Position numbers and translations under genes: made by a program
In this document: positions 7,821 through 35,019 of the stretch, piece by piece
Layout of the letters: every line of letters begins with the position of its first letter
Position numbering within the stretch: position 1 is the stretch's first letter
Origin: Halorubrum alkaliphilum
Lineage (GTDB): Archaea > Halobacteriota > Halobacteria > Halobacteriales > Haloferacaceae
Direction of reading: 5' to 3'
NCBI RefSeq assembly: GCF_017873815.1
Contig: NZ_JAGGKQ010000024.1
Coordinates: forward strand, 1 to 43,634
DNA length: 43,634 nt
Notes under the pieces: model-generated
Told to the model about the DNA's origin: nothing
What the model saw: only the letters and a program-made list of their open reading frames with translations
Databases searched by the model: none

Positions 7821-8786
7821 GTGTCACGCGTCACGGTCCGGATCGATCCGCACGTCCACTCCGAGGCGAGCTACGACGGCCACGAGCCAGTGGAGCTCAT
7901 CCTCGAACACGCCGCGGACATCGGACTCGACGCGGTCGTGATCACCGACCACGACACGACTACGGGGTCGGTTCGGGCCGCGGAGATCGCGGCCGACTAC
8001 GGACTGATCGGAATCCCCGGCGTCGAAGTGTCGACCGCACACGGGCATCTGCTCGCCATCGGCGTGGACCGGGTCCCGCCGCGCCGGCTCTCCTACGCCG
8101 AGACCATCGCGTGGGTCCACGATCACGGCGGCATCGCGGTCGTTCCCCATCCGTTCCAGCGATCGCGCCACGGCGTCCGACGACGACACCTCCCCATCCC
8201 CGATCTCGACGCCGCGACGAGAGTCGTGGGGTCCGGGACGCGGGCCACGACGAGCCGGGACGACGGCGATGATGGTAGCGGCCGACCGGATCACGTCGGC
8301 GGCGGCCGACCGGATCACGTCGGCGGCGGCCGACCGGATCACGTCGACGAGGTCGACGCGGTAGAGGTGTTCAACGCGTGGCTGTTCACCGGCTACCACA
8401 ATCGTCGTGCCCGGCGGTTCGCGAAGAAACACGGATATCCCGGCGTTGCCGCCAGCGACGCTCACACCCTGAACTACGTCGGTCGGGCCTTCACCGAGTT
8501 GACGATCGAGGGCCGTGAGCACGTCGACGACGTCACCGCCGACGACGTGCTCGCGGCGATACGCGATGGGCCGACGACCGTGAGCGGCAAGCGTGCGCCG
8601 ATCCCGATGGCGGCGAGACACTACGTCGTCGCCGCGATCCGGAAGTCGGGCTACTACGCACGAACCGGGACCCGACGCGGAACGAGGGGCGTGCTCCGCG
8701 GGAGCCGTGAGGCGAGGTCGATCGCACGCGTCGGCATCGCTCAGGGGCTCCGGCGGATCCGCCGCACGCTCTCGTGGATCCGGTAG
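7821..8786 (+). CDS. PHP-domain metal-dependent phosphoesterase
   Basis: The 321-aa product carries DPHVHSEASYDG (metal-binding HxH plus Ser/Asp), ITDHDTTTG, IPGVEVST, GIAVVPHPF and VAASDAHTLNYVG, the ordered metal-ligand motifs of the PHP family. It probably hydrolyses a phosphoester such as a nucleoside bisphosphate, but the substrate is unknown. The middle carries an inserted acidic linker containing three GRPDHVGG-type units (see the repeat at 8280). The start is GTG, set by the TATA spacing and by DPHVH lying at residues 9-13. It stands alone before moeA. Confidence 0.88.
   Translation: MSRVTVRIDPHVHSEASYDGHEPVELILEHAADIGLDAVVITDHDTTTGSVRAAEIAADYGLIGIPGVEVSTAHGHLLAIGVDRVPPRRLSYAETIAWVHDHGGIAVVPHPFQRSRHGVRRRHLPIPDLDAATRVVGSGTRATTSRDDGDDGSGRPDHVGGGRPDHVGGGRPDHVDEVDAVEVFNAWLFTGYHNRRARRFAKKHGYPGVAASDAHTLNYVGRAFTELTIEGREHVDDVTADDVLAAIRDGPTTVSGKRAPIPMAARHYVVAAIRKSGYYARTGTRRGTRGVLRGSREARSIARVGIAQGLRRIRRTLSWIR
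8280..8348 (+). repeat. In-frame 24-bp tandem repeat within the PHP gene
   Basis: Units at 8280-8303 and 8304-8327 match exactly, and a third at 8328-8348 is the same until its last bases. They encode repeated GRPDHVGG octapeptides in a loop between PHP motifs. The frame is preserved, as expected for slippage duplication in a surface linker. Confidence 0.9.
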
Positions 8787-8867
8787 CGATCCGGGTCGAG
8801 ACCGGCGAGCCGGTCGGTGTAAACTGGGGAGGCGAGGTTTTTCCACGCGGAGCCGAAACGACTCGAC

Positions 8868-10103
8868 ATGAGCCACGACAGACGTAAAACCGGATTCAAA
8901 CGACGGACTCGCGTCGAGGAGGCGTTGACAACCCTCCTCGACGCGGTCGATCCGCACGGCCGTACGGAGACCGTCCCGCTGGGCGAGGCCGACAGCCGCG
9001 TTCTCGCCGAAGCGATCGACTCCCCGGTACCGGTTCCGGGATACGACCGCGCGGCGATGGACGGGTACGCCGTCCGCGCGGAGGACACGTTCGGCGCGTC
9101 CGACCGGTCCCCGACCGTGCTCCGGACCGCGGAGAACGCCGTCGATCCGGGCGAGGCCGTCCGGGTCCACACGGGGAGCGCGCTCCCCGACGGGGCCGAC
9201 GCGGTCGTGATGATCGAACGCGTCGAGGAGGTCGGCGACGACGTGGAGACGTTCGACGCGGTCGCGTCGGGTGAGAACGTCGGTCCCGCGGGCGAGGACG
9301 TCGCGGAGGGGCAGCGGCTCTACGACGCCGGATCGACGCTTCGGCCCTCCGATCTCGGGCTGCTCAAGTCGGTCGGCCTCGATACGGTCGAGGTCGCCGA
9401 CCGACCGACCGTCGCCGTGATCCCGACCGGCGAGGAACTCGTCCAGTCGGACCCTGACCCCGGAGAGGTCATCGAGACGAACGGGCTCACCGTCTCACGG
9501 CTCGTCGAGCGCTGGGGCGGGAGGGCTCGCTACCGCGACGTCGTCACCGACGACGAGGCCGCGCTCGCGGACGCGATCGAACGCGACCTCGACGCCGATG
9601 TCGTCGTCACCACGGGCGGGTCCTCCGTTGGTGAGCGCGACCTTCTACCCGAGGTCGTCGACGGACTGGGCGAGGTGCTCGTCCACGGGGTTGCGCTCAA
9701 GCCCGGTCACCCGGTGTGTCTCGGGCGAGTCGAGGGGACCCCGGTCCTCTCGCTTCCCGGGTATCCCGTCGCCTGTATCGTCAACGCGGTACAGTTCCTC
9801 CGGCCGACGCAGAAACGGATCGGCGGGACCGCACCCGACCCCTTCTCCACTCGCCGCGCACGCTTGGACCGGAAGGTCGCGAGCGAGCCGGGGACGCGGA
9901 CCTTCGCCCGGGTGAAACTCACTGAGAGCTCGGACGAGAGCGGGGAGGACCCGCCGTTCGTCGCGACCCCGACGCGAGCGAGCGGGTCGGGTGTGCTCTC
10001 CAGTGTCACGCTCGCCGACGGCTGGGTCGTCGTCCCGGAGTCGGTCGAGGGGTTCGACGCGGGCGAGACCGTCGACGTCGAGCTCTGGGAGGCCACCGAA
10101 TGA
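8868..10103 (+). CDS. moeA: Molybdopterin molybdenumtransferase MoeA (first copy)
   Basis: The 411-aa product inserts molybdate or tungstate into adenylated molybdopterin. It holds PGYDRAAMDGYAVRAEDTFG (residues about 47-66), GSALPDGADAVVMIE, VIPTGEEL, TTGGSSVGERD and LPGYPVACIVNAVQF, the standard MoeA/gephyrin-E sequence. Domain IV closes the protein at the C-terminus. Its stop overlaps the start of the second MoeA (ATGA at 10100-10103), so both are made together. Haloarchaea often carry two MoeA paralogues. Confidence 0.95.
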   Translation: MSHDRRKTGFKRRTRVEEALTTLLDAVDPHGRTETVPLGEADSRVLAEAIDSPVPVPGYDRAAMDGYAVRAEDTFGASDRSPTVLRTAENAVDPGEAVRVHTGSALPDGADAVVMIERVEEVGDDVETFDAVASGENVGPAGEDVAEGQRLYDAGSTLRPSDLGLLKSVGLDTVEVADRPTVAVIPTGEELVQSDPDPGEVIETNGLTVSRLVERWGGRARYRDVVTDDEAALADAIERDLDADVVVTTGGSSVGERDLLPEVVDGLGEVLVHGVALKPGHPVCLGRVEGTPVLSLPGYPVACIVNAVQFLRPTQKRIGGTAPDPFSTRRARLDRKVASEPGTRTFARVKLTESSDESGEDPPFVATPTRASGSGVLSSVTLADGWVVVPESVEGFDAGETVDVELWEATE

Positions 10104-26116: not shown

Positions 26117-26191
26117 GCTCCGGTGGTGTAGTCCGGCCAATCATATTGCCCTCTCACGGCAATGACCTGGGTTCGAATCCCAGCCGGAGCA
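26117..26191 (+). tRNA. tRNA-Glu (anticodon CUC)
   Basis: Acceptor strands GCTCCGG (26117-26123) and CCGGAGC (26184-26190) pair, with discriminator A. The anticodon stem TTGCC/GGCAA encloses CTCTCAC, giving CTC, which reads GAG. The T arm is CTGGG-TTCGAAT-CCCAG. CCA is not encoded. A TTTTAATTT patch at about 26070-26078 is the likely promoter. An integrase begins 222 nt after its 3' end. Confidence 0.96.
26167..26191 (+). other. Probable attachment site at the 3' end of tRNA-Glu
   Basis: A tyrosine integrase directly downstream and the change to accessory content suggest that the element recombined into the T arm and acceptor 3' half of this tRNA. A second copy would define the other border; I find none in the window, so this call rests on position only. 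Confidence 0.45.
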
Positions 26192-26204: not shown

Positions 26205-26362
26205 GCCGTCTTGCAGTTTTCGCTCGTGAACTAGAGTGAAATAAACCTATGATCACGGGCAATCACGTTCGATGGACCAACTCACCCCGCTGCCGTCCTG
26301 CGATTAGCAGGAGCGCGAGGGCAATGAAGTTCAGTACACTAAACCCGACGCCGTCTTGCGAT
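26205..26362 (+). repeat. Three copies of a GCCGTCYTGCR motif before the integrase
   Basis: The motif occurs at about 26205, 26292 and 26350, with intervals of 87 and 58 nt, both multiples of 29. They lie between the tRNA end and the integrase start, where arm-type integrase sites would be expected. Short motifs can recur by chance, so this is tentative. Confidence 0.4.
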
Positions 26363-26412
26363 CGGGGCGAATCGACGGGCAAGAACCTGGGTCCCCTGCG
26401 AGGTGGCCGGCA

Positions 26413-27540
26413 ATGAAGAACGCCGACGAGGCAACGACGCCTCTTGAAGGGGTTACAGTCATCACCGAACCTGTTGCTGACCTGCTCAACGAGCGGCAAC
26501 AGATCGACTACCGCAACCAGCGTGAACAGTGTTTAGAATGGCTTCTCGTGTTCGGCAAAGATCCGAAGAAGGCTGAGGGGTACGCACGGACAACCGTCAG
26601 TAATCGCGCCTACCGTATGGACCAGTTCTACCGGTGGGTGTGGGACCATGAAGGTGGGTACACGACGAACGTCACGCACGACCACGCAGATACGTACCTG
26701 TTGTGGCTCGCCAAGCAAGAACACAGCAACGCTCACAAAGACAACTGTCGGAAAGCACTCCAGATGCTATACAAGTGGCGTGAGCACGAACACGGTCTTG
26801 ACGAGTGGGAGCCGGAACTCTCGTTCAGTACCGGGCATAAGACGACCGCGCCGCGCGACTACCTGACCCGTGAAGAACGTGGTCTGATCCGCAGGGCGGC
26901 ACTCGAACACGGGAGTGTTCCGTCGTATGGGAGCCTCAACGCTGAAGAGCGCGACCGGTGGAAAGCCTATCTCGCTCAGCGATTCGAAAAACCGAAATCG
27001 GCGGTGGTTCCAGCCGACTGGGAGAAGGCCAACGGGTGGAAAATCCCGAGTCTCGTCACCGTAAGTCTCGATGCTGGACTCCGCCCGATCGAAGTGGAAC
27101 GCGCCGTGACGAGTTGGGTTGACATCGAAAACGCCGTCCTACGCATTCCAAAAGAGCAGTCATCGAAAAACACTGGCCACTGGGTTGTCGGACTCCAAGA
27201 CCGGACCGCAGAGACGCTCGACAGGTGGCTCGAACAACGCAAAACCGATCCAAAATACGACGATACGGACACGATCTGGTTGACCCGCCGTGGGAACACG
27301 TACGGGTCGGCCGCACTGCGGAAAGTCCTTCGCCGTCTCTGTGATCAGGCGGAGATCCCCTACGGAAACCGGCAGATGAGCTGGTATTCGATACGGCACT
27401 CAACTGGCACGTATATGACTCGGGAGGAGGACCTCGCCGCAGCGCAGGCGCAGCTCAGACACAAGAGTCCCGAAACGACCATGAAATACGACCAAGCTCC
27501 CGTCGAAGACAGGCAGAACGCGTTAGATCGGATGGGGTGA
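26413..27540 (+). CDS. Tyrosine-type site-specific integrase
   Basis: The 375-aa product has an N-terminal SAM-like region (ARTTVSNRAYRMDQFYRWVW, DTYLLWLAKQEHSNAHKDNC) and a C-terminal catalytic domain: SLDAGLRPIEVER with box-I Arg224, WYSIRHSTGTYM with box-II Arg (the usual first His is Tyr), LRHKSPETTMKYDQ with the His and the nucleophilic Tyr. It is expected to integrate and excise the island at the tRNA-Glu. The ATG at 26413 starts in MKNADEATTPLEGV; upstream in-frame codons cross the repeated motif region and are unlikely to be coding. Convergent with the second integrase by 23 nt. Confidence 0.9.
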   Translation: MKNADEATTPLEGVTVITEPVADLLNERQQIDYRNQREQCLEWLLVFGKDPKKAEGYARTTVSNRAYRMDQFYRWVWDHEGGYTTNVTHDHADTYLLWLAKQEHSNAHKDNCRKALQMLYKWREHEHGLDEWEPELSFSTGHKTTAPRDYLTREERGLIRRAALEHGSVPSYGSLNAEERDRWKAYLAQRFEKPKSAVVPADWEKANGWKIPSLVTVSLDAGLRPIEVERAVTSWVDIENAVLRIPKEQSSKNTGHWVVGLQDRTAETLDRWLEQRKTDPKYDDTDTIWLTRRGNTYGSAALRKVLRRLCDQAEIPYGNRQMSWYSIRHSTGTYMTREEDLAAAQAQLRHKSPETTMKYDQAPVEDRQNALDRMG

Positions 27541-27563: not shown

Positions 27564-28889
27564 TCAAAGTTCTTCAGACAGTATTTTTCGAGCGATTTCA
27601 ACCCGGTCATCCTGTGTGTCATCGATGAACACGTCGATGTGATCTCCGTGAGCGTGTTCTGACGAGTGACTCGACTCATTACGGGGGGTTGGATCCGGCT
27701 GTACCGGGTCATCCGCGTACGGGTTGAATTCTGGATCCTCCGCAGCGCGCTGCGAGACATCAGTTATTTGTTCAAGTGTATGCCGACGACTCTCGATGGT
27801 GGATTCGCCGTAGGTCTGCTTCGTCGTCTCGATGTACTTGTGACGCAGTTGATCGCGGGCCTGCGAGATGTCTTCTGTTTCCTCGATCGACTGCCCGAGG
27901 TTGTGCCGGAGGCTGTACCACACGATCTTCCGGTCTTCGTGGTCGATCCCGGCTTCCTCGCAGAGTCGTCGAAGCAGGTAGCACAGGTTCTTCGAGTTGT
28001 ACGGGTTCCCTTCGCGGTTGAGCCACAGGTGGTTCGTACCGTCGTACTTCTCGTAGTGCCGTCTCTCTTGGATCCATTCGCTCAGGAGATCTCCCGTCGC
28101 GTCCGTGAGCGGGAGTTCCGACGTTGGCCGATCTTTCCCCGCGTCGTCCTTTGTGATCTTGAGAATGTTCCGGTTCGACTTGTACCAGTCGGTTCGCGCC
28201 CGCCCGACTTCAATCGGGATGATGCCCGTCTCAAGGGTCACGGCAATGAGCGACCCGACCTTGGTACTGGTGTCGGCGCGCTCCCAGTCCTTCCGCGTCA
28301 CCTCGGTCTTCGGTTTGCCGAGTCGTTGCGCGACGAGGCTGCTGATCTTCTCGCGCTCTGTCTCGGTCGTCTCGTAGTAGGACGGCAACGACCCGTACTC
28401 GTTGGCGGCTTGCAGCACTTTCCACCGCTCTTCGAAATTCAGGCGGTCCGCATTCTCGTGTTCGCCGTCCGAGAAGCTGATCCGCGGCCGCCACTGCTCG
28501 GCGTCGCCTCGCTGGTCGTGCTGCCACGTGAAGTACTTGATGAGAGCGTTCGAGAACTTTCGCTTGCTGGTCTCCTGGTACGGGTCACCGTTCCGCTGGC
28601 AGATATCGTTCTGGTCTAACCACTTCACGATCAGGTCCGCTTGGTCGTGAGTGATCACCGTCGCATCTGCAGGTTCGATTCGGCCGATGACGAACCTGAA
28701 TATCTGGTCGATCCGTCGATAGTAATTGGTCGAAATGGAGTCGGACAGCGGTTTCTGTCGATCCGGGTTCTTTCCCTTCGTACGCATCCAGTTGTGGAAT
28801 GCATTGAGCTCATTCTCAACGGCGTTCGCTTCGTCACCGAGCGCCGCCGCAAGCTCGTTCGTAATCGATTTTCGGTTCTTGTCTGTCAT
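27564..28889 (-). CDS. Integrase paralogue lacking the box-I arginine
   Basis: The 441-aa product is a relative of the neighbouring integrase (shared SFSDGEH/SFSTGHK, GSLPSY/GSVPSY and IPIEVGRA/RPIEVERA segments). In box I it reads TLETGIIPIEVGRA: Ile224, encoded ATC, replaces the catalytic Arg. WYSLRHNLG keeps box-II Arg, and QLRHKYIETTKQTYGES keeps His and a Tyr. It also has a longer C-terminal tail (about 75 residues, acidic and His-rich). It may be catalytically dead and act as a regulator or accessory factor. ATG 28889 is preferred over 28901, because a TATA-like CTTAAGTAG lies about 28 nt before it. Confidence 0.85.
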   Translation of the reverse strand: MTDKNRKSITNELAAALGDEANAVENELNAFHNWMRTKGKNPDRQKPLSDSISTNYYRRIDQIFRFVIGRIEPADATVITHDQADLIVKWLDQNDICQRNGDPYQETSKRKFSNALIKYFTWQHDQRGDAEQWRPRISFSDGEHENADRLNFEERWKVLQAANEYGSLPSYYETTETEREKISSLVAQRLGKPKTEVTRKDWERADTSTKVGSLIAVTLETGIIPIEVGRARTDWYKSNRNILKITKDDAGKDRPTSELPLTDATGDLLSEWIQERRHYEKYDGTNHLWLNREGNPYNSKNLCYLLRRLCEEAGIDHEDRKIVWYSLRHNLGQSIEETEDISQARDQLRHKYIETTKQTYGESTIESRRHTLEQITDVSQRAAEDPEFNPYADDPVQPDPTPRNESSHSSEHAHGDHIDVFIDDTQDDRVEIARKILSEEL

Positions 28890-28911
28890 TGAAGCAAACA
28901 AGTGAATTATC

Positions 28912-29703: not shown

Positions 29704-29844
29704 TTACTCGTTCTCAAGCGCGTCGTAGATCTCCCGATTCGCATCCCTATCAGCTGCCGCAACCCGCCGGACAAGCTCGCCTCGGATATCTTCCATCACT
29801 TCGTCAAGCGGAGGTCGAGACTCTGTACCCTCCTCAGTTGCCAT
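29704..29844 (-). CDS. Small protein next to Doc, candidate antitoxin
   Basis: This 46-aa acidic product (MATEEGTESRPPLDEVMEDI...) is predicted to be largely helical, with ELVRRVAAADRDANREI forming the last helix. It starts 25 nt after the Doc stop on the same strand, so the antitoxin would follow the toxin, the reverse of the usual order. The ATG at 29844 is preferred; an in-frame start at 29895 would overlap doc. No DNA-binding fold is visible. The assignment rests on position. Confidence 0.5.
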   Translation of the reverse strand: MATEEGTESRPPLDEVMEDIRGELVRRVAAADRDANREIYDALENE

Positions 29845-29869
29845 ATGTACGTTCTCGTTCTGAGCGCTG

Positions 29870-30358
29870 TTAATCGTTCGGATCCGACGAGCCACCGGTC
29901 AGTTCGTCGACGCCGTACTGGATAAGATCCTCGCGCCACGCTTCGATCTCTCCTTCGAGGTCGATGACTTCGGTGTGAGTACGAAGATATTCGATAGTCT
30001 CCGTATCGTCAACTGACGTTTCGTCGGTGCCGAACTGCTTGAGAAGCGACCGTATTTCGTCGTCGTACGCGAACCGGTATCCGTTGAGAAAATAAAATAC
30101 GGTCGTCGTGTTGAGAGCTGTACGCTTGTTCGCGTCGACGAACGGATGATTTGCTACGAGGAGTCGAAGAAGATGAAATGCTTTCTCGTGAATCGTCTCC
30201 GGAGCGGCTCCAAAACTACCGTCTTCGATGTAATTCAGGACGAACTCGATATCACCACGGTTCTGCACGCCAGACGGCGTGTCAGAATACTCCGAGACGA
30301 TGTCGTCGTGAATGGCGAGAACATCCTTCACTGACGGATACCAGAACGAATCAGCCAT
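29870..30358 (-). CDS. doc: Doc-family (Fic fold) toxin
   Basis: The 162-aa product has HPFVDANKRTALNTT (residues 71-85), matching the Doc motif HxFx(D/N)(A)NKR, with FWYPSVKDVLAIHDDIV at the N-terminus. In phage P1, Doc phosphorylates EF-Tu and blocks translation, while Fic enzymes add AMP; which activity applies here cannot be told from sequence. It overlaps nothing and is probably cotranscribed with the small gene downstream. Its upstream gap to the next gene is 102 nt. Confidence 0.85.
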   Translation of the reverse strand: MADSFWYPSVKDVLAIHDDIVSEYSDTPSGVQNRGDIEFVLNYIEDGSFGAAPETIHEKAFHLLRLLVANHPFVDANKRTALNTTTVFYFLNGYRFAYDDEIRSLLKQFGTDETSVDDTETIEYLRTHTEVIDLEGEIEAWREDLIQYGVDELTGGSSDPND

Positions 30359-30460: not shown

Positions 30461-31369
30461 CTACATCCCCACAACGAGCCGGTCTGTCAACTCCTCGATT
30501 TCCTCAGCTTCCCTGACAGCGGACACCCACCGGTCCGGAAGCTGTGACGCTCCGAACCGCGCACCGGCGACTGCGCCAGCAATCGCTCCAATCGTATCGG
30601 TATCTCCGCCGCGATTGACCGCCGTCACGATCGCTTCCTCAGCACTGTCCGCGACGAGGCCATCGTGGAGTGCCGTCTGCAGCGAATGGACGACGTACCC
30701 TGACATTTCCAGCGTGCCGGGTGAGTCGCCACGAGCGAGTGGTTCGAGCGCCGTCACGAACTCCTCAGGAGCATCTGAACTGACGTAGTCGAGGGCATCC
30801 TGTAACGGCGTGGCCGCGTCTTCGAGTAGGCCAGCTATCGTGAGGTTCAGAATCGCGCAGCCCTCGGTACACCGCGGGTCAGCGTGCGTGATCTGGGAAG
30901 ACTGCCGACTCACTTCGGTGAGTCGGTCCCAGTCCGTCGTGTACGGGATGGCGAGCGGTGGACACCGCATTACACTCCCATTCCCTGCGTTCTGGCCTTC
31001 AGGACTGCTCTCCCAGACCTGCTGGCCTGCCTCGTCCCACGAATCGCCGCGTTGGAGGCGGCTGAGCGACCGCCTCGTCATCCCCCCTATGTCGAACGGG
31101 CCACTATCGTACCACGCAACGAACCGCTCGGCAATGTCCGCCGGATCGAACTCTTGTTGCTCGGCGAGACTTCGTGCGATACACAGCGCCTGCTCGGTGT
31201 CGTCCGTGATCGTCCCGGCGGGCTGATTCCACGTCCCGTGCCCGATCATCTCGTTGAGCTCCCCGTGTTCACGCTGGATATCGGACTCGGACTGAAATTC
31301 GACTGGCCGGCCAAGCGCGTCCCCACACGCCAACCCGAGCATGACTCCACGGACACGATCCGGATTCAT
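30461..31369 (-). CDS. ADP-ribosylglycohydrolase
   Basis: The 302-aa product is of the DraG family: MLGLACGDALGRPVEF, PAGTITDDTEQAL (metal-binding TDDT), NAGNGSVMRCPPLAI, and AVNRGGDTDTIGAIAGAVAGA carrying the second metal-site Asp pair. It removes ADP-ribose from protein or small substrates and is expected to be cytoplasmic. The partner transferase is not in the window. It is 102 nt upstream of doc on the same strand. ATG 31369 is chosen because MNPDRVRGVMLG begins the family core; 31378 adds MLR. Confidence 0.9.
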   Translation of the reverse strand: MNPDRVRGVMLGLACGDALGRPVEFQSESDIQREHGELNEMIGHGTWNQPAGTITDDTEQALCIARSLAEQQEFDPADIAERFVAWYDSGPFDIGGMTRRSLSRLQRGDSWDEAGQQVWESSPEGQNAGNGSVMRCPPLAIPYTTDWDRLTEVSRQSSQITHADPRCTEGCAILNLTIAGLLEDAATPLQDALDYVSSDAPEEFVTALEPLARGDSPGTLEMSGYVVHSLQTALHDGLVADSAEEAIVTAVNRGGDTDTIGAIAGAVAGARFGASQLPDRWVSAVREAEEIEELTDRLVVGM

Positions 31370-31412
31370 ACGCAACACAACGATGACGTCCGAGAAAAGG
31401 GTAGGGTGGTCG

Positions 31413-31682
31413 TCACTCGTCGGGTTTCGATCCGGTACGGAGGGTCTCCCGGTACGCGCCCCGCGCTTGATACATCTCCACTCGTTCCGCTTCCGTCATC
31501 GTATCGTGTTCGTCCGCATCGTAGAGCGGGAGGTCCTCTTTTTCCGGCATTGCCATCACCTGTCCGAGCGGATAGCGTTGCTCGTAGTAGTTCTCTAACA
31601 CCCAGTCTTCGCCGTGTTCGTCAACGGCTTTCTGAATGTACGGGGCAGCTTCCGGGTACTCGTCGGCGAGTGTCTCAGTCAT
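31413..31682 (-). CDS. Small acidic protein of unknown function
   Basis: The 89-aa product is rich in Glu/Asp and Tyr (ADEYPEAAPYIQKAVDEHGE and WVLENYYEQRYPLG). It looks like a plasmid- or element-encoded haloarchaeal protein but I do not recognise it. It lies 43 nt upstream of the glycohydrolase gene on the same strand and divergent from the RecA-like gene, with 166 nt between. Confidence 0.6.
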   Translation of the reverse strand: MTETLADEYPEAAPYIQKAVDEHGEDWVLENYYEQRYPLGQVMAMPEKEDLPLYDADEHDTMTEAERVEMYQARGAYRETLRTGSKPDE

Positions 31683-31848
31683 TGGGAGTCGTGTGGTGGT
31701 AGCGTTGTGTGGTTCTGTGGGTCTATGGGTGCGGGTCAGGCGTCAGGGGATTCGGCGAACGAGTTGTTCTGGCTGTCACTGTTCCACTTCCAGTTCCACT
31801 CCGCGTGTATGGCTCACCCCTTTGAATATCACGCGGCAGGTAACGAGT

Positions 31849-32538
31849 ATGAACACATCTCAACGACAATCACCCGTGGAGTTACCGGAACTGGATACCG
31901 GACTCACGCTCGTGGACGTGGGTTCGGATCTCGGCGTAACCCCAGTCCAGTCGTTACTGCTTGACCGCGTGTTCGCCGGGGACGGCGACGCGTACTGGGT
32001 TGACGCGGCCGGCACGGCACAGACCACACGGCTTCGTGAACTCGCCCCCGACAAGCGGTACCTTCACCGGGTACACGTCGCTCGCGGGTTCACCGCGTAT
32101 CAACAAACGTCGCTGCTTGACCGGCTCACCGGAGACCGCGTCACGACCCCGAGCGTCGTGGTTGCGACCGGGATCGACCGGCTGTATCGAGACACCGACG
32201 TACCGGCGACCCACGCGCAGGATCTGTTGGTCCGAGCGATCGCCGCGCTCGCACGCGTTGCGCGTGTTCATGACGTCCCGGTCGTCGTGACACGATCGCG
32301 TGCCGACGAGTTCACGCGACCGCTCGTGAATGCAGCGCAGACACATCTCCAGTGGGAGGACACGCAGTTCGGGCCGCGATTCACCGACGCGGCCGGCGAC
32401 GTCGAGACGCTCGTGTATCACCTTAGCGACGGGTGGGTGCAGACGACGCTCGCGTACTGGCAGGAAGTACTCACCCATCGAGCACGGATGCACGACGCGT
32501 CGGTCGTAGGTGAAGAGGCGACGTCGGGGAGTGTCTGA
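31849..32538 (+). CDS. RecA/RadA-fold protein with lost Walker motifs
   Basis: The 229-aa product can be aligned by eye with the RadA core: LVDVGSDLGVTPVQSLL (25-31, in place of the Walker A GxxxxGKT; Lys is Val30), YWVDAAGTAQTTRLRE, RVHVARGFTAYQQ (as in RadA VARAFNSNHQ), and SVVVATGIDRLYRDTD (Walker B Asp is replaced by Ala), then VPVVVTRSR. It therefore probably cannot bind ATP normally and may be a structural partner. ATG 31849 follows an A/T-rich TTTGAATATC. It overlaps the next gene by 1 nt (TGATG). Confidence 0.7.
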   Translation: MNTSQRQSPVELPELDTGLTLVDVGSDLGVTPVQSLLLDRVFAGDGDAYWVDAAGTAQTTRLRELAPDKRYLHRVHVARGFTAYQQTSLLDRLTGDRVTTPSVVVATGIDRLYRDTDVPATHAQDLLVRAIAALARVARVHDVPVVVTRSRADEFTRPLVNAAQTHLQWEDTQFGPRFTDAAGDVETLVYHLSDGWVQTTLAYWQEVLTHRARMHDASVVGEEATSGSV

Positions 32539-32819
32539 TGGGGCGAACCACCCCGACATACCGCGACACGCTGCGCGCGATCGAGGACCGCTGGGGGCCG
32601 TACCGCCGGACGCTGCGCCGCCGCGATCAACCGCGATTCGACCAGCTGTTCGTCTACGCCCGCACCCACGCCGACGCGGCCGGGATGTTGAATCACGACG
32701 ACCGGTTCGCACCTCTGCTCGTGAGTATCGCCATCGAGCAGGAACGCCGGATCGACGAACTCGAAGCCCACATCACCGAACTCGAAAACCCCACCAGTCC
32801 CGATTGTGCTGACCGTTGA
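32538..32819 (+). CDS. Small linker protein of the PolB cassette
   Basis: The 93-aa product begins MGRTTPTYRDTLRAIEDRWG, has RRRDQPRFDQLFVYART and ends in a helix IEQERRIDELEAHITELE that may form a coiled coil. It has no family I recognise. Its first codon overlaps the RecA-like stop (TGATG) and its end overlaps the polymerase start by 14 nt, so it is coupled on both sides and probably works with both. Confidence 0.65.
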   Translation: MGRTTPTYRDTLRAIEDRWGPYRRTLRRRDQPRFDQLFVYARTHADAAGMLNHDDRFAPLLVSIAIEQERRIDELEAHITELENPTSPDCADR

Positions 32820-35019
32820 CTTCCACTCCTCTGGTGACGTCGTTCACTGGGCACTCACCGACGACGGCGTCACCCGCACGGTCCACAGCGAGTACACGCC
32901 GACGCTGTTCGTCGGTGACGCAGTCCGTGACTTGTACGGGCGGCGCGGCGGCCCGACCCCAACACCACCGGACCGTGACGGACTGTCGGAGTCGCTCACC
33001 GATCTTCAAGCGTTCCTCACCGGGCAAGACGCAGTTGTCGACATACAGTGTGAAGCCCACCGGCAGACGTTTCGAACGGCTCCGCGGCCGCTTCTCCGGA
33101 TCGACGCGGCCAGCGTAGACGCCGTGCGACGCATCGCACAGCGCGTCCAGCAGTTCAACGGCCCGGCCGAGTACACGTGTTACAACGTTGATCTGACGCC
33201 GCAGTTCCGGTACTGCCTCGAAACCACCACACCGGCGAGCCCAGACCGGTCCGTCCGGTCACTCCGTACACTCACGCTCTCGATCCCACCGCACAAAGCA
33301 GGACCCGACGCCCTGTCACACCTCACGATCGACGGTGACGCCGCCGGGCCCACACCCGAAGCCACCGTCACCGCCGTTGACCGAGCCGTCCGCGAACGCG
33401 ACCCTGACGTCATCGTCGTGTCCACGGCGAAGCTCGTCCCGGTCCTGTTCGACGCCGCCGACACGCACGACGTACCGAACTTTGAACTCGGCCGCGCCCC
33501 CGGGTACACGAAACTCGCCGGGGAATCCACGTACACGAGTTACGGGCAAGTCGGGCACTCCCCGGCCCGGTACACGATCCCCGGCCGCGTCGTGATCGAC
33601 GAGTCGAACACGTTCTTCTACCACGAAGCCGGGCTGCCCGGCTGCCTCGATCTCGTGAACCGTGCCGGACTCCCGCTCGAAGAACTCAGCTGGGCGTCGA
33701 TCGGGCGCGTGCTCACCGCCATGCAGATCCGTGCCGCCCGCGACCGTGACGTCCTCGTCCCGTGGCAAGCCTGGCGACCGGAACTCTTCAAACCCGCAGC
33801 CACGCTGGACGCCGCCGACCGCGGCGGCACCACGTTCGCCCCCGCAGTCGGCGTTCACGAGAACGTCCACGAACTGGACTTCGCGTCGCTGTACCCGAAC
33901 ATCATTCGAACCCGAAATATTTCCCCGGAAACCGTTTGTTGCGGGTGCTGCGACACTAACGACGTCCCCGGTCTCGGATACTCGATCTGTGAGGCCGACG
34001 GGTACCTCCCGACGGTGCTCGGCCCGCTCATCGACGCGCGCAGCCGCATCAAAGACCAGATCGAGGAAACGACCGACGACGTCGAACGCGACCGACTCGA
34101 CTCAGCGTCGTCAGCGATCAAATGGATCCTCGTCTCCTGCTTCGGGTACCAAGGCTTCTCAAACGCGAAGTTCGGTCGGATCGAGTGCCATGAAGCGATC
34201 AACGCGTTCGCCCGCGACATTCTCCTCGATGCGAAAACCGCACTCGAAGACGCCGGGTGGCGAGTCGTCCACGGCATCGTCGACTCGATCTGGGTGACAC
34301 CAACCAAGGATCGTGAACAACGCAATCTCGAAACGGTCGCCGCCGAGATCAGCACCGACACGGGTATCGAACTTGAATACGAATGCGCGTTCGACTGGGT
34401 TACGTTCTGCCCGATGCGTAACAGCGAGTCTGGCGCACTCACACGGTATTTTGGAAAGCGACGTGATGAGGCGTTACCCGTGTCGGAGGCCACGCTCGGT
34501 GATGCGATCAAAACCCGCGGGATCGAAGGTCGTCAACGCTCAACGCCCACATGGGTTGAAGACGTACAGGCGGAAGCCCTTCGCGTGTTCGATAAAACAC
34601 GATCACCAGAAGCGGTGTGTGACGTGTTACGCCGTACACTCACGTCATTACGCAACGACGATGTTGATCCAGAGCGACTCGTCATCGACAATCGCGTGTC
34701 AAAACACATCGCCGATTACACGCACGAAACGCTTACCGTTGCCGCACTCAAGCGAGCCACACTGAACGGGACCGGGCTGTCACCCGGACAGACCATCCAG
34801 TACGTCGTCGTCAACAACAACGCACACGGTACCGAACGAGTACGGCTATCGTACGAGGACATCACCCGATACGACACTGACTGGTACGCCAACGCCGCTA
34901 TACGAGCTGTCGAAAGCGTCCTGGCACCGATCGGGTGGCGAGAGGGAGAGATTCGAGACTACCTCACCGGCACAACGGATCAGACACTAACCGCATACAG
35001 TGAACGCACTGACTCCTAA
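32806..35019 (+). CDS. Family-B DNA polymerase with degenerate exonuclease
   Basis: The 737-aa product starts at GTG 32806. Motif A is HELDFASLYPNIIRTRN (Asp358). Motif B reads KWILVSCFG (439-447), where canonical K-x3-NSxYG has Val for Asn and Phe for Tyr. Motif C reads HGIVDSIWV (Asp493), keeping the second Asp of YGDTDS and losing the first. The exonuclease-I FDIE and exonuclease-II YNxxxFD patterns are missing (TLTLSIPP and VVSTAKLVPVLF occupy the spots). A Cys cluster C378-C395 follows motif A. It may still extend DNA without proofreading. PolB2 is the usual haloarchaeal name for a second family-B enzyme, but this is not confirmed. Confidence 0.85.
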   Translation: MLTVDFHSSGDVVHWALTDDGVTRTVHSEYTPTLFVGDAVRDLYGRRGGPTPTPPDRDGLSESLTDLQAFLTGQDAVVDIQCEAHRQTFRTAPRPLLRIDAASVDAVRRIAQRVQQFNGPAEYTCYNVDLTPQFRYCLETTTPASPDRSVRSLRTLTLSIPPHKAGPDALSHLTIDGDAAGPTPEATVTAVDRAVRERDPDVIVVSTAKLVPVLFDAADTHDVPNFELGRAPGYTKLAGESTYTSYGQVGHSPARYTIPGRVVIDESNTFFYHEAGLPGCLDLVNRAGLPLEELSWASIGRVLTAMQIRAARDRDVLVPWQAWRPELFKPAATLDAADRGGTTFAPAVGVHENVHELDFASLYPNIIRTRNISPETVCCGCCDTNDVPGLGYSICEADGYLPTVLGPLIDARSRIKDQIEETTDDVERDRLDSASSAIKWILVSCFGYQGFSNAKFGRIECHEAINAFARDILLDAKTALEDAGWRVVHGIVDSIWVTPTKDREQRNLETVAAEISTDTGIELEYECAFDWVTFCPMRNSESGALTRYFGKRRDEALPVSEATLGDAIKTRGIEGRQRSTPTWVEDVQAEALRVFDKTRSPEAVCDVLRRTLTSLRNDDVDPERLVIDNRVSKHIADYTHETLTVAALKRATLNGTGLSPGQTIQYVVVNNNAHGTERVRLSYEDITRYDTDWYANAAIRAVESVLAPIGWREGEIRDYLTGTTDQTLTAYSERTDS

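Follow-up and report, generated by a model that had tools for sequence, protein, structure and literature searches.

A RadA-family protein without recognisable ATPase residues, a candidate scaffold subunit of the PolB2 mutasome in a haloarchaeon

The iRadA-PPB2-PolB2 operon was reported by Makarova et al. 2014 (PMC4104785), and it forms the basis of a predicted translesion "mutasome" described by Timinskas et al. 2025 (PMC11791011). In the latter paper, AlphaFold models of 40 putative complexes were built, and the complex is modelled as a heteropentamer with three PPB2 subunits alongside PolB2 and iRadA. In these models, iRadA sits on PolB2 through a Rad51-type oligomerisation pocket, which is occupied by a PolB2 loop that immediately precedes the D(K/R) motif. 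PCNA motifs are also reported for iRadA there, from a search restricted to motifs in the final 30 residues. The E. coli Pol V mutasome (UmuD'2C-RecA) is analogous, as it combines an error-prone polymerase, a small subunit and a RecA-family subunit (PMC11791011); however, it has a Y-family polymerase and an active RecA, and its polymerase and small subunit are not homologous to those of the PolB2 mutasome. Among haloarchaea, polB2 of Halobacterium NRC-1 is located on pNRC200 and is non-essential (PMC1906834), and polB2 of Haloferax, which has a radA-like gene nearby, can be deleted (PMC7776575); the available text of these two papers describes no phenotype for either deletion.

We analysed a stretch of 43,634 nucleotides from Halorubrum alkaliphilum (the window), which carries an operon of this kind. 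The host genome is haloarchaeal, and the three closest named relatives are Halorubrum (77-91% identity). Comparisons among iRadA proteins are based on 76 distinct homologues (>60 bits, with duplicates removed by the last 120 residues), whose overall identity drops to about 31%; a further 23 weaker matches (18-31 bits) were left out, each of which shows a GxxxxGK[ST] P-loop and derives from a locus retrieved as a RadA gene. The iRadA gene and the parts of its product considered here are as follows.

31849..32538, + strand: iRadA, ATPase-dead RadA-family protein, 229 aa (ORF, profile and alignment evidence)
31918..31941, + strand: Walker A remnant VGSDLGVT, residues 24-31, Lys replaced by Val30 (alignment with intermediates)
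32077..32103, + strand: VARGFTAYQ, residues 77-85, pocket strand, with R79, T82 and Q85 invariant in 76/76 (alignment)
32155..32169, + strand: Walker B remnant VVVAT, residues 103-107, Asp replaced by Thr107 (hhalign, alignments)
32440..32460, + strand: QTTLAYW, residues 198-204, candidate PCNA-interacting box, with Q, T, T and W invariant in 76/76 (alignment)

The open reading frame proposed in the first-pass annotation is real, and both segments singled out there, VARGFTAYQQ (residues 77-86) and VPVVVTRSR, are present in the protein. A longer in-frame start exists at 31636, but in two close relatives (L005 and L006) the stop-to-stop frame starts just one codon ahead of the ATG that corresponds to 31849. 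The protein begins 18 residues ahead of the Walker A strand, and the N-terminal helical domain is absent.

Single-sequence searches with iRadA retrieved Rad51 in Pfam (E 4.1e-4, under the family cut-off), RadB as the best match in NCBIfam (TIGR02237; E 1.2e-4, 22 bits against a cut-off of 172.4) and RadA in the PDB (E 0.013). These matches are weak yet concordant, and the profile searches are decisive for kinship with RadA: a profile of 49 relatives matched archaeal RadA in the PDB at E 1.1e-12, and an alignment of the iRadA and RadA profiles with hhalign gave E 1.9e-6. The RadA-like core recognised earlier by eye is therefore confirmed, and homology of iRadA to RadA/Rad51 rests on these sequence statistics. 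A Pfam match to isochorismatase (E 9.5e-5, under the cut-off) was rejected because it spans residues 118-184 only and the alignment profile retrieves RadA; neither KaiC nor ImuA appeared among the Pfam and NCBIfam matches. The AlphaFold monomer of iRadA, made with 4 aligned sequences, has a mean pLDDT of 41, so evidence for the fold depends on the sequence profiles. Using this low-confidence model, Foldseek returned mostly Rad51/RadA/Dmc1 chains, with Shu1:Shu2 among the top matches (E 3.2e-4). VIA-align placed methyltransferases, which have non-RecA folds, level with Rad51 (Z 6-8), and only the Shu complex exceeded Z 8; we place little weight on the structure searches because methyltransferases rank alongside Rad51.

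Compared with RadA/Rad51, iRadA shares the core region that runs from the strand of Walker A up to the one preceding L2, including the VA(R/K)xF strand; however, the Walker A Lys, the Walker B Asp and the NQ of VTNQ are lost, the N-terminal domain is missing, and there is an extra C-terminal QTTxxxW segment. RadB resembles iRadA in size and in its RadA-like core, but it keeps GxxxxGK[ST] and the Walker B Asp. iRadA has neither the Walker A GxxxxGK[ST] and Walker B Asp expected of RadA nor the intact Walker A and above-cut-off score expected of RadB. The genuine radA lies on contig C25 of this genome, and radB is present as a separate gene.

Placing the P-loop required intermediate sequences. 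Without them, MAFFT placed the P-loop in a gap, and in the global hhalign alignment the Lys fell in a gap next to V30. Five non-halophile relatives (L138-L141 and L143) retain the strand that leads into the P-loop but not the Lys of the P-loop itself; when these were included, G29-V30-T31 aligned opposite the Gly-Lys-Ser of RadA and T107 opposite the Walker B Asp. The replacement of the Walker A Lys by Val, as first noted, is borne out by this alignment. Loss of the Walker B Asp likewise holds, but its replacement by Ala does not, as the Asp column falls on T107 and the residue previously indicated, A106, is one position off. None of the 76 homologues has GK[ST] at the P-loop; one (L023) has a Lys within the P-loop region, yet outside the Lys column. 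The Walker B Asp column contains Pro in 64 homologues, Thr in 11 and Ala in one, and the ATPase residues are also missing in 5/5 non-halophile operons. No relative in the same operon has an intact Walker A, the 23 P-loop matches all belonging to loci retrieved as RadA genes. Based on these alignments, the ATPase active-site residues of iRadA are lost.

Two further genes follow iRadA on the same strand, and we list them here with the polymerase motifs discussed below.

32538..32819, + strand: PPB2 (arCOG07300), 93 aa, starting MGRT (ORF, helix prediction)
32806..35019, + strand: PolB2 polymerase, 737 aa, with a GTG start overlapping the end of PPB2 (NF004418, E 5.8e-283)
33787..33828, + strand: PolB2 FKPA...DRGG, residues 328-341, candidate FxxA-like motif for iRadA binding, with the D(K/R) motif after it (pattern and published role)
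34276..34287, + strand: PolB2 motif C (residues 491-494), which reads IVDS, with Val in place of the first Asp of DxD (alignment)
34978..34998, + strand: PolB2 C-terminal DQTLTAY, PIP-like tail (pattern)

The iRadA stop and the PPB2 start overlap in TGATG at 32536-32540. Three helices are predicted in PPB2 (mean pLDDT 69), which adjoins iRadA in 75/76 homologue loci and has GR[TS] at positions 2-4 in 74/75. PolB2 is on the same strand as iRadA in 64/76 loci, many of which extend only 1.5 kb in the flank; together with the lack of GK[ST], this agrees with the initial description of a dead RecA-fold protein kept in an operon with a polymerase. At the domain level, Pfam matched PolB2 to DNA_pol_B, and up to E 1 there was no match to an exonuclease domain of the B family. 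Motif C reads VDS in 25/25 aligned sequences that reach the column. At the putative plug site, 60 distinct relatives have F/Y/W in 57/60, K/R at the next position in 60/60 and A/M/V/L at +3 in 60/60, with the search expression itself requiring the K/R and DRGG. The tail pattern, composed after many tails had been viewed, matched 16/24 PolB2 tails and 0.51 in shuffles; by eye, 22/24 tails end in Lxx[FYW], and the exceptions (L012 and L063) look truncated. The replicative PolB3 of this genome has the tail QTGLGSF.

The gene order, PPB2 with MGRT, and PolB2 with a replaced DxD and a D(K/R) motif are all features of the known PolB2 mutasome, and the RadA fold lacking both ATPase residues and an N-terminal domain is shared with known iRadA (arCOG07763/04294/08101; Sulfolobus islandicus). 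The family and its scaffold-like role are already published, and the gene itself is one more example of a described family. The window's iRadA differs from known iRadA in belonging to a diverged haloarchaeal branch, in its internal candidate PCNA box and in its radA-type UV promoter element; the internal QTT box and the promoter link are the features that deserve most attention.

Nine iRadA columns are identical in 76/76 homologues (W50, R79, T82, Q85, Y113, Q198, T199, T200 and W204), and the most conserved segments are a Rad51-type partner-pocket strand and a QTT(L/I/F)x(Y/F)W box. The strand from R79 to Q85 aligns with the VA(R/K)xF strand of RadA/Rad51, which we take to line the pocket for the FxxA motif of a neighbouring subunit. 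At the position of the QTT box, the non-halophile iRadAs L138-L140 have a C-terminal QTTLDEF, which fits the canonical PCNA-box pattern, and L141 and L143 have QMQLGAY and QMQLSAY, respectively. A [LIM]..[FYW] pattern occurs within the last 25 residues in 23/76 iRadAs; the invariant QTT box sits further in. In 71/76, over 30 residues separate its Gln from the C-terminus, which is beyond the limit set in the 2025 search, and the box may have escaped that search for this reason. We propose QTTLAYW as a candidate PCNA-interacting box; an invariant internal motif could also simply be structural. In the available iRadA and PolB2 mutasome literature, we found no description of the QTT box or of the conservation of the pocket strand.

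Upstream of iRadA, two promoter features were identified.

31786..31800, + strand: tandem element ACTTCCAGTTCCACT, of the form (ANTTYC)2ACY, at -63 to -49 relative to the iRadA ATG, a candidate operator for the response to UV or damage (pattern)
31809..31829, + strand: conserved block [AG]TGGCTCACCCCTTT leading into a TATA-like stretch (TTTGAATAT), about 20-40 nt before the ATG, with the TATA-like stretch itself about 20-30 nt before it (by eye)

The pattern ANTTYCANTTYCAC was composed after 16 promoters had been viewed, and these 16 are therefore no independent test of its enrichment; upstream of the operon, it occurs perfectly in 17/76 cases and with at most one mismatch in 21/76, all but one at a similar distance. 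Three operons outside those 16 (L029, L044 and L050) carry it with no mismatch at a similar distance. As controls, block-shuffled upstream regions gave 1/760 and the opposite strand gave 0/76. The element is missing or unrecognisable in 55/76 operons. Scanning the whole genome for ANTTYCANTTYCACY identified 4 sites (0 for a reversed control pattern), located upstream of this operon, an operon copy on C18, a gene on C4 whose product begins MPSKEVV, and a 59-aa ORF on C20. The C4 site (L134 1501-1566) precedes a small gene that is Zn-ribbon-like by eye, and the C20 site (L136 1501-1562) precedes a predicted ORF; both genes are candidate members of a regulon defined by the radA-type element. In the genome's own radA promoter, TTTTTCACTTTCACT is found at a comparable distance and departs from the pattern by one mismatch.

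Boubriak et al. 2008 (PMC2556686) described TTTCACTTTCA upstream of Halobacterium radA1 and other UV-B-induced genes. The window element is a variant of this 11-mer and not identical to it, as three positions differ. The name polB2 has 0 occurrences in the available text of that paper (PMC2556686), and we found no report in the open-licence PMC literature that joins the haloarchaeal motif to the PolB2 operon. In Sulfolobus, the hexamer ANTTTC is the damage element bound by Orc1-2 (PMC9738581). An element common to the radA and mutasome promoters suggests one damage regulon comprising radA and the iRadA-PPB2-PolB2 operon, with co-regulation as its prediction.

RadA homology, loss of the ATPase site, a three-gene operon and conserved motifs are established here for iRadA. 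The best explanation, which we consider highly probable, is that iRadA is a subunit of the PolB2 mutasome, a multi-protein translesion polymerase; it is most likely a scaffold subunit of this mutation-prone repair polymerase complex. Under this explanation, the nucleotide chemistry of RadA would have been lost, but the region of the fold into which a neighbour inserts its FxxA-type plug would have been retained. PolB2 would supply the plug F-[KR]-x-[AMVL] just ahead of DRGG, so that iRadA would dock on the polymerase and not on another RadA; lacking both the N-terminal domain and an FxxA donor, iRadA would be unable to extend a filament. In the published model (PMC11791011), the MGRT-bearing arm of PPB2 is wedged between PolB2 and iRadA close to DNA. 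The QTTLAYW box of iRadA, the PolB2 tail, or both may tether the complex to PCNA, and UV damage probably turns on the operon together with radA via the common (ANTTYC)2 element. Overall, iRadA looks like a recombinase fold cut down to a pocket that would hold the polymerase and a box that would bind the clamp.

The first-pass annotation had suggested a scaffold role, which is the best reading of iRadA and essentially the published model (PMC4104785, PMC11791011); its additional suggestion, that this role is played at RadA filaments, is unsupported. In such a role, the pocket would cap or recruit RadA and thereby bring PolB2 to ssDNA-bound RadA, comparable to RecA acting in trans with Pol V. 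Conservation of the pocket strand (VARxFTxxQ) would fit, and a promoter element common to radA and the operon could allow both proteins to coexist. However, the published models fill the pocket with PolB2, and PolB2 with active RadA scores very poorly in them (PMC11791011). In addition, iRadA lacks the N-terminal domain and the window protein lacks an FxxA donor, and F..A occurs in the examined N-terminal segment of only 3/72 homologues (of 76; 4 are without the anchor used). We therefore regard action on RadA filaments as unlikely.

An even less likely explanation is that the operon is cargo or a remnant of a mobile element, with inactive parts that are drifting and have no present function. 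Two integrase genes are located nearby, polB2 is dispensable in laboratory culture (PMC1906834, PMC7776575), and iRadA homologues occur on plasmids, with matches in 94/72,556 plasmid records (164 for PolB2). Among the matches listed (40 for iRadA and 60 of 164 for PolB2), 26 plasmid records are shared by both proteins; iRadA and PolB2 are on the same strand within 7 kb in 24 of these shared records and within 500 bases in 17. Drift is at odds with the nine iRadA columns that are invariant despite the low overall identity, and the frames in the window are intact, with the iRadA-PPB2-PolB2 trio staying together. Least credible of all, to the point of being almost negligible, is an ATP-independent, RadB-like recombination mediator co-transcribed with the polymerase by chance, as the NCBIfam match to RadB that would favour it is far under its cut-off, RadB proper retains Walker A, and the genome has its own radB gene elsewhere.

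The genome contains two further iRadA-PPB2-PolB2 operons (C18 and C27; iRadA identity 64%) and, on C49 (L064 1237-4803), a fourth PolB2 next to an ORF that by eye is Orc1/Cdc6-like. No iRadA or PPB2 was found in the 1.2 kb upstream of the C49 PolB2. Directly upstream of the C27 operon copy, at L058 6014-7590, is a CBASS defence pair; its CD-NTase-like cyclase was recognised with PADLOC (E 2.3e-84) and its Cap15 effector with Pfam (E 1.0e-20). A 238-aa ORF with no Pfam match (8616-9332) lies between PPB2 and PolB2 of this copy.

Within the window, the two tyrosine-recombinase genes are convergent (26356-27540, + strand, and 27564-28901, - strand), 23 bases apart, and near a tRNA-Glu gene (26117-26191). 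Integration at this tRNA was considered and set aside, as the window has no second copy of the tRNA end beyond a 12-base match. A similar recombinase pair occurs directly upstream of the iRadA operon in L005, and L006 has one integrase. An ADP-ribosylglycohydrolase gene (PF03747, E 3.2e-80; 30461-31378, - strand) is divergent from the operon, and such a gene is also near the operon in L004 (82% identity) and in L057 (broken frame); it was rejected as a general partner because it is absent from all other iRadA loci compared. A Fic/Doc-family protein (PF02661, E 4.3e-10; 29870-30358, - strand) is possibly a toxin, with a small ORF at 29704-29895 as its candidate antitoxin partner. A viral origin of iRadA was also rejected, as viral contigs gave 3 pattern matches, none of them confirmed, and phage records gave no match. 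PolB2 matches four Leptospira phage records (KF114878, KF114879, KX656785 and KF114880) with 26-27% identity, each match covering no less than 80% of the PolB2 length.

A broader reading joins these elements into a haloarchaeal SOS-like regulon (radA and the mutasome via (ANTTYC)2AC), damage wiring that extends across archaea, and iRadA as a clamp adaptor; we offer this combination tentatively and consider it rather doubtful as a whole. The half-site of (ANTTYC)2AC is the Sulfolobus Orc1-2 element ANTTTC, so the wiring of damage to mutagenesis would span distant archaea; regulators of the Orc1/Cdc6 family, often encoded next to polB2, may provide the link. If this reading is true, radA and a mutasome containing a dead copy of the recombinase would be switched on together by one element. 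The archaeal damage response beyond Sulfolobales is poorly known, and the element common to the radA and mutasome promoters provides a testable candidate regulon in tractable haloarchaea; the invariant pocket strand and QTT..W box, in turn, provide the exact residues to probe why a dead recombinase persists.
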